From Branchiostoma floridae (Eukaryota; Chordata; Leptocardii; Amphioxiformes; Branchiostomatidae): DNA of 64,000 nucleotides. Positions 12,801 to 15,800 of this stretch are shown here, piece by piece (positions within the stretch are counted from its first letter, which is position 1; each line of letters starts with the position of its first letter). Where the stretch lies: positions 14,276,555 to 14,340,554 of the forward strand of contig NC_049989.1 in NCBI RefSeq assembly GCF_000003815.2, written 5' to 3'. The translations under genes and the position numbers were made by a program. The notes beneath the pieces are model-generated. The model ran no database searches. It saw nothing but the letters and a program-made list of their open reading frames with translations, and was not told the origin of the DNA.

Positions 12801-15800
12801 ACTTCCCTGTCTGGACTGGACAGGTTTTTCCGAAAACCCATATAAAACCCATAAAACCCAGTATACTTACAAGAACTGACTACCAGTATTTGTTTTCTCC
12901 TCCCCGTAGTGCCGTGACTACCACAAGTTGAACTCCAGTAGTCTACAGTGTGAGTTCATCAGGAACACATCAGACTGTGGAATAGATGAAGGTTTCATCA
13001 ACTACCTACTCTTCCCCTACTGCTCTCTGCCAAACCTGGTACCACTGGCTATGGTCATACTGGTGAGTTTTCTGGCATCAGGACGATTCTGCCCTTCATC
13101 ATTGGACTGACCACAATAGTCTCAACTCTGATCACAGCACGCTATATACTCCCTGTAGCAAACAACTTGTAATGACGGCACCTGACTCGATTCTGAGTGA
13201 ATTCAGCACCAAGGACAGATCTGCTACTCAGCACAGTCATGTCAGCCCAATACTCTTGTCATCTCGGCCCAACACCCTGTTTAACTTGACCCAACACCCT
13301 TGTCAACTTGGCCTGACATCTTGGTCAACTCGGCCAGGGTGAGGGTTAGGGTAAAGGAGGGATTAGGAGTGGGGTTAAGGTTAGAGTAATGTCTCCCTTG
13401 GTGGGGAAAACAGACGATAGATTGGATAGGAAGTGTGTGTGTGTGTGTGTGTGTGTGTTTGTGTTAGTGTGTATGTTAGAGTATTGCTGCCCCTACGGCC
13501 AGTTCAAGTTGGTCCCATCAGTCATGATCAGTCCAAATTTGGTAAAGGGCCAAAGGGCCACATTGATTCTGAAGCAATATTCAATGGACTGTCCATATCC
13601 TCTGTTCTGTGATGTCAGGTTATATACATGAAGATAGCGCCAGTATAGACAAGGATCGCTATAAGGGAACGACTCTTGGGCACACGATGCAACTATATCG
13701 AGGAGCTTTATTCCAACATGGCGATACAGTAGGAGTCGGTGGTCGGACTAACTCTAGGACTGAACCAACATAACATAGGGGTGTTATTCTAACTAAATAC
13801 AACATAAACCAACATGGGTGGCGTGATCGTTTTCCTTTCTTATTTCTATCTCTCTTACTACTTTACACCAACTAGCTATGCCCAACTATTATTAATCTTA
13901 GTGGCATGATTTGGTATGAGCAGTGGATCATAAGTTGCAGACAGTTTATGGATCCCACTGTCTTGTATTTTAAAACACACTGATGTATCAACAAAGTGCA
14001 AGTAGATACTAGATGGAAAAAAACATTACTTGTCATAAATACATTAAAGCCATCTCAAACATGTTTCCATAAAAAAAATATGCAGCAGAACTAAAGGAAT
14101 TACAGAGGGGGAGGGCTCTGCCAAAATGCTATCTCATTACTCATAGTCTGGATAATTTTGTTGTATTCAAGTTCTCTTCATTTGATCAGGAGCATTATGT
14201 TCCTTTTTTCAGTTCTGTTTTGTACAATATTTGATGATTCTAATCTTGATATTAACAATGTTTGATGAAATAATGCTGAAGTCTGTTTTTTTTACTTCCC
14301 TTGTTTGATCACAGTTCCTGTGGTTAATGGTACTGTTTGTACTACTGGGTGTAACAGCAGACGACTAGTGAGTTCCACTTTCATCATTTCTTTCTCTTAT
14401 CTATATTAATTATGTGTTATAAAGAACTAACAGAAATGTACCAATTTATAACAAAGTTATTTTATTTTATTTTTTAAATTTTGTTCACATACATTTAACG
14501 AGCATAGGACAGAAAGCTCAGTAATGAGCTTATAGACATTTTCTGCTCAAGATACTAGTATATATAATGACAGTCAAAATTAAGAAAATTAAGAATACAG
14601 CAAAACATATAACTCAGGATGACATGAACATAAACTAAGTCATTTTGCAACGTAAGAATGACAAGAATATCAACAGAGTCAAATGATAATGGTGACGGTT
14701 ACATAATAGTCAATTTACTATAAAAAAGTTCTTTAAGTTCCTGTAATAACCAATGTACAATGATTAACACAGCCAATGTTTCAGGGCTAACTGTTACCTT
14801 CATTAGGGTAGTACTGACTACCTGAGTAGTTCTATTTCACACTGCAGGTTTTAACGTCATGAAATACATGTGTTTCATCAAATGATTTCATCATTCTTCT
14901 TTTTCTCCAGTTTTTGCTCAGCCCTGAAGGTGATCTCCGACACTCTGAAACTCAGCCAGAACATCGCTATATCCTCTTCATGGGTAAACCATAGAATGAT
15001 ACAGATACTGTCTGTTACTAGATGAAAGCACATAGTAGCAGTAATAGTTACTTTTACTGTTACAGTAGTAGTAGCCAGTATATATTTGATTTTATGTCAT
15101 ACCTGTGATGCGAAAACGTTCGATACGGGTGTTCCGGACTGGGCCATAACTTCCGTATCGCACAGGTTCGAAAGGCGTATCACACGGGCTCCATTTTTAA
15201 ATCGAACTGTTTCGAGCGGGCCAAGTGCGGTGCCATAACAAATCAGAAGCTTGTTAGTGTAGTAATCTAGTAATAGAATTTGTCTCGCCAGTAATTTTAT
15301 TTGAAAATGTATTTCAAAGAAATGTGAGAAGCTCAGTTTGTTCAGAGATGGGAAGTGAACCTTAACTCCTTCTTAAGGCGTGACTATTCTTGCCTTTGGA
15401 AATGGAGCTCCCGACATCTTCAGCGCAGTTGCAGCTATCACTAACAATAATGGTGTGAATGCTGGGCTTGCCATCGGAGCCTTATTTGGTAAGTAGCCTG
15501 GATTTTGTTTGTTTGCATAACCAGTTAACATTTTTAAGCTTCAGACATAACACATATCAGTTTTATACAATAAATACATTATATAAAAGTCAGTCTATCT
15601 GAACTTGATTGTGACTTTTTCTCTTTTGGTCTCTATCTCTCTTTCTTTTTCTTGTGCATGCACTCACTCTTATCTATCTATCTATTTATTGCTTCAGTTT
15701 TACCACATTTATGGAAAGATTGTCATAACAGGTGACTATGATCACCGTTGCAAGATTGTCAGCCTGAAGACCAGACTGTAAGGTTTGATCCACTCATACC

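Follow-up and report, generated by a model that had tools for sequence, protein, structure and literature searches.

Does the intron at positions 14969-15376 of the 64,000-nucleotide stretch of lancelet DNA analysed here (the window) end in AA, one base short of an AG, and by which splicing machinery would such an intron be removed? As judged from the sequence, the surrounding gene looks like one that encodes an NCLX-like (SLC8B1) sodium/calcium exchanger. Among solved structures NCLX is its best relative, matching a 112-residue stretch with an E-value of 4.3e-34 (the next kind of exchanger reached 1.5e-6), and a Na_Ca_ex domain is found in each modelled half of the gene product (E-values of 5.1e-26 and 4.6e-31). 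The NCLX name suggests a mitochondrial role for this product.

All exons and introns described below lie on the plus strand. The upstream exon (14911-14968), identified from the sequence and from the protein match to solved NCLX, ends with ...LSQNIA in phase 0. The downstream exon (15377-15488), for which the domain search provides additional evidence, starts with GVT... and contributes to the alpha-1 repeat. Eleven introns of the gene were examined, a set that covers the gene outside its 5' end and the stretch 17053-20078. Nine of these are ordinary GT-AG introns, one (22677-22861) is a U12-type intron with GT-AG ends, and the remaining one (14969-15376) has the predicted AT-AA ends that are the subject of this study.

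Splicing signals of the intron

The predicted U12-type AT-AA intron is 408 nt long and in phase 0, a prediction that combines its signals, an enumeration of splice alternatives and an estimate of chance occurrence. The upstream exon closes with AAC ATC GCT, and the intron opens with ATATCCTC. The consensus of U12-type 5' splice sites is RTATCCTY, and the intron fits it directly at the exon end, the complete site being ATATCCTCTT (14969-14978). Position +8 is occupied by C, not T, which we have counted against a U12-type reading.

Branch sites of U12-type introns are close to TCCTTAAC and lie about 10-20 nt upstream of the 3' end. In the motif CCTTAACT (15360-15367), the core CCTTAAC occupies 15360-15366 and its second A (15365) would be the branch adenosine, such that the branch site ACCTTAACT places this residue 11 nt before 15376 and within that range. 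The last intron bases are TTAA, with the predicted 3' terminal dinucleotide AA at 15375-15376, as located by sequence and splice enumeration. Positions 15374-15376 read TAA, an AG is found at 15376-15377, one base past the predicted end, and the sequence from 15377 onwards is GGC GTG ACT ATT CTT GCC.

Both motifs are infrequent in the window, with nine copies of RTATCCTY and nine of CCTTAAC when both strands of the 64 kb are counted and the copies within these introns are included. The expectation for both motifs being correctly placed within a single intron is about 6e-8 from the window counts and about 5e-8 from an order-1 model, or about 5e-7 over the 11 introns examined, figures that serve as a guide rather than as a blind test as the motifs were picked after the finding had been given.

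Splice ends compatible with the protein

The enumeration of splice alternatives took in donor ends from 14911 to 15329 and acceptor starts up to 15469, with introns of at least 39 nt, and counted every pair whose reading frame meets no stop before the downstream exon ends. Only two of the 3565 open in-frame pairs yield the exact expected protein (NIAGVT...), namely the AT-AA pair and its one-base slide TA-TA, in which the alanine codon is GCA in place of GCT. Canonical ends are present in 27 of the 3565 pairs (18 AT-AC, 8 GC-AG and a single GT-AG), and none of these GT-AG, GC-AG or AT-AC pairs keeps the downstream GVT... motif. This motif is kept by 107 pairs, which end in AA (38), TA (35), TT (28) or AG (6), the six with AG having the donors CC, TG, AC, CT, TA and TT. 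As an in-frame TAA occupies 15374-15376, an upstream extension of the downstream exon is ruled out in that frame.

The two residues that flank the junction are conserved. In the five of 12 structure matches that were shown as alignments, A-G is identical in two solved NCLX sequences, and the glycine is also found in the alpha-2 repeat of NCLX and in archaeal NCX, where both repeats have it. A protein search of the genome (513,431,437 bases in 431 contigs) resulted in eight matches, all eight candidates having been scored, with three in the NCLX-like gene and five elsewhere. Among these five weaker matches, three exchanger relatives (L011, L012 and L013) have the identical A-G residues, and the other two (L014 and L016) gave no alignment across the junction. 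L011, L012 and L013 were also considered as relatives with a matching intron and were discarded in this respect, as all three are intronless at that place and read uninterrupted through the junction; they are informative for residue conservation only.

Taken together, the reading frame and the conserved residues of the assembled sequence require a predicted intron end in AA, with GCT/GGC as the expected junction. The original prediction had proposed exactly these intron coordinates, and the exon ends, the TAA and the GGC start were recovered when the sequence was re-read. It had also named the donor and a CCTTAAC element about 11 nt from the 3' end, both of which are present with a distance of exactly 11 nt, and had argued that the frame and a conserved A/GVT demand an end at AA and not at AG, a claim that holds to the extent that the enumeration leaves AT-AA or the TA-TA slide.

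Minor-spliceosome components and a second U12-type intron

A genome search revealed the snRNAs U6atac (E-value 1.6e-32, 133.6 bits) and U12 (E-value 4.8e-26, 132.1 bits), a result that covers two of the four kinds of minor-spliceosome snRNA, with U11 and U4atac outside its scope. A CENATAC/CCDC84 gene is also present (family PF14968, E-value 2.9e-68, 238.2 bits). The branch stretch CCTTAACTC (15360-15368) can form 8 contiguous pairs with the U12 snRNA of this genome, where GAGTAAGG at snRNA positions 16-23 pairs over 8 nt with CCTTA(A)CTC, the second A being bulged; a pairing of 8 nt was equalled by 25 of 1000 shuffles. When the donor was compared to U6atac, without a control, the longest runs were 6 nt and out of register.

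The second candidate U12-type intron of the gene (22677-22861) is 185 nt long, has GT-AG ends and reads GTATCCTTTT ... TCCTTAACCGTTCACAG; its assignment is likewise based on signals, enumeration and a chance estimate. Its donor has a longest run of 7 nt with U6atac, again without a control, and its branch site has a 7-nt run with U12 snRNA that was equalled by 198 of 1000 shuffles and so is not beyond chance. This intron is located in the alpha-2 repeat, directly before N-M-L-M.

A probable A-type U12-dependent intron ending in AA

We favour the interpretation that 14969-15376 is an A-type (AT-AN) U12-dependent intron with AA as its 3' dinucleotide, and assign it a probability of about 0.82. 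We do so because the signals and their spacing are exact, because of the enumeration and the conserved A-G, because U6atac, U12 and CENATAC are encoded in the genome, because a second U12-type intron occurs in the same gene, and because the class is documented. The U12-type AT-AA reading of the original prediction is supported by donor, branch site, spacing, junction residues, splice alternatives and spliceosome parts, which all agree.

According to this interpretation, the donor ATATCCTC would be recognised by U11 and later by U6atac, and U12 snRNA would pair with the branch site, bulging its adenosine. The short, fixed spacing between branch point and 3' site would then direct cleavage to the position after AA, in spite of the AG that is completed one base further on. 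The spliced product would join ...QNIA to GVT... within the exchanger's alpha-1 repeat. CENATAC is likely to be needed, as extracts of PMC8280824 report that it promotes the splicing of AT-AN minor introns, and that its depletion in human cells hit 92% of A-type but 24% of G-type introns.

Alternative explanations

The main rival is a one-base assembly error, or an allele, near 15375-15378 that hides an ordinary A-type intron with AT-AG or AT-AC ends. The sequence TTAAGGC lends itself to such a reading, as a single base lost from the short G run would set AG directly before GGC, and the existing AG is only one base away from the predicted end, where an extra G would create AT-AG. The per-base error expected of a polished assembly, however, is well below the 3.8% frequency of non-canonical ends. 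A second copy of the junction with which these bases could be compared was looked for in the genome and not found at the DNA level (one full-length match, with 40 of 1154 first-look candidates scored), and NCLX-like exons were obtained by protein from this locus only (8 of 8 candidates scored). Weighing the published frequency of AT-AA ends against this expected assembly error rate, we regard a sequence error as unlikely, and as less likely than a true AT-AA intron. According to extracts of PMC10639083, some 3.8% of the conserved minor introns of animals have non-canonical ends, and AT-AA is the most frequent of these.

It is very unlikely that the main transcript uses other, protein-altering ends, either by joining the major-type donor GGGTAAAC (exon end 14983) to AG 15377 or AA 15376, or by joining the AT donor to AG 15377. 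Both the GT at 14984 and the AG at 15377 exist, and extracts of PMC8280824 describe that cryptic or annotated major sites are used when A-type minor splicing fails. Nevertheless, both junctions to AG 15377 run into a stop codon at once, the product being ...ISSSWA-stop from GT 14984 and ...NIAA-stop from AT 14969, and none of the 27 canonical pairs keeps the motif. Other motif-keeping pairs do join a GT donor to AA, and GT 14984 with AA 15376 stays open while inserting ISSSW ahead of GVT, but GT-AA is itself non-canonical and would leave the donor ATATCCTC unused. Products of GT 14984 may be by-products or minor forms at most. We consider it extremely improbable that an AT-AC intron is shifted by two bases, with its donor after 14970 (ATCCTC) and its end at 15384 (GTGAC), an arrangement which is in frame and has AT-AC ends, but which drops the conserved G-V-T, places the cut within the ATATCCT motif at its position +3, and has its 3' site 19 nt from the branch A.

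Relation to known minor introns

The AT-AA reading places this intron in a class that has already been described. AT-AN minor introns, AT-AA included, are defined in PMC8280824 (extracts), and among the non-canonical ends of minor introns AT-AA is the most frequent in both animals and plants, accounting for almost 75% of such ends in plants and for a share not even half as large in animals (extracts of PMC10639083). In extracts of PMC7367187, "other" ends make up 0 to 14% of the U12-type introns in genomes that have them, in a table without a lancelet, and extracts of PMC10853796 include one AT-AA intron in a human set. The original prediction was correct in calling AT-AA introns rare, but as the class is well documented, the finding is less of a surprise than it implied. 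Given the record of AT-AA as the non-canonical end seen most often in animals, the lancelet intron adds one further example to a class that is rare but known. In the literature covered on SLC8B1/SLC24A6 and on minor introns of amphioxus/Branchiostoma, with subscription papers and supplementary lists outside the scope, nothing was found on this intron; SLC8B1 is unnamed in extracts of the main text of PMC6717393 (supplementary lists being outside this scope), and extracts of PMC3033335 contain nothing on the lancelet NCLX-like intron.

The lancelet intron resembles A-type AT-AA introns in its ATATCC donor, in having the branch site CCTTAAC close to the 3' end and in its predicted AA end, and no anatomical difference was seen. 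Classical AT-AC introns of U12-type have the same donor and branch site but end in C where the lancelet intron would end in A. U12-type GT-AG introns such as 22677-22861 have the same branch core at a similar spacing (10 nt vs 11 nt), but differ in having G as first base and AG at the end, unlike the predicted AT-AA of 14969-15376.

If transcripts agree, this would be a clean natural case, fixed by a conserved glycine, of a minor-intron 3' end that is set by the distance from the branch point despite an AG one base further on. Gene models from pipelines that insist on AG would then probably be wrong at this intron. A tentative and rather doubtful extension is that the AT-AA intron is stable and functional within an ion-binding repeat of a mitochondrial exchanger with two minor introns, such that expression would be CENATAC-dependent and weak splicing at AA could meter NCLX via intron retention.

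Repeats within introns of the gene

Intron 14969-15376 harbours an interspersed repeat (15090-15236, plus strand, about 147 nt), for which at least 42 other matches in the genome were found at 79-95% identity, with 40 of 1154 candidates scored. Two other introns of the gene contain repeated stretches (21040-21480 and 23090-23420), recognised by eye, that are composed of units like "ctgtccctggtgctgaat".
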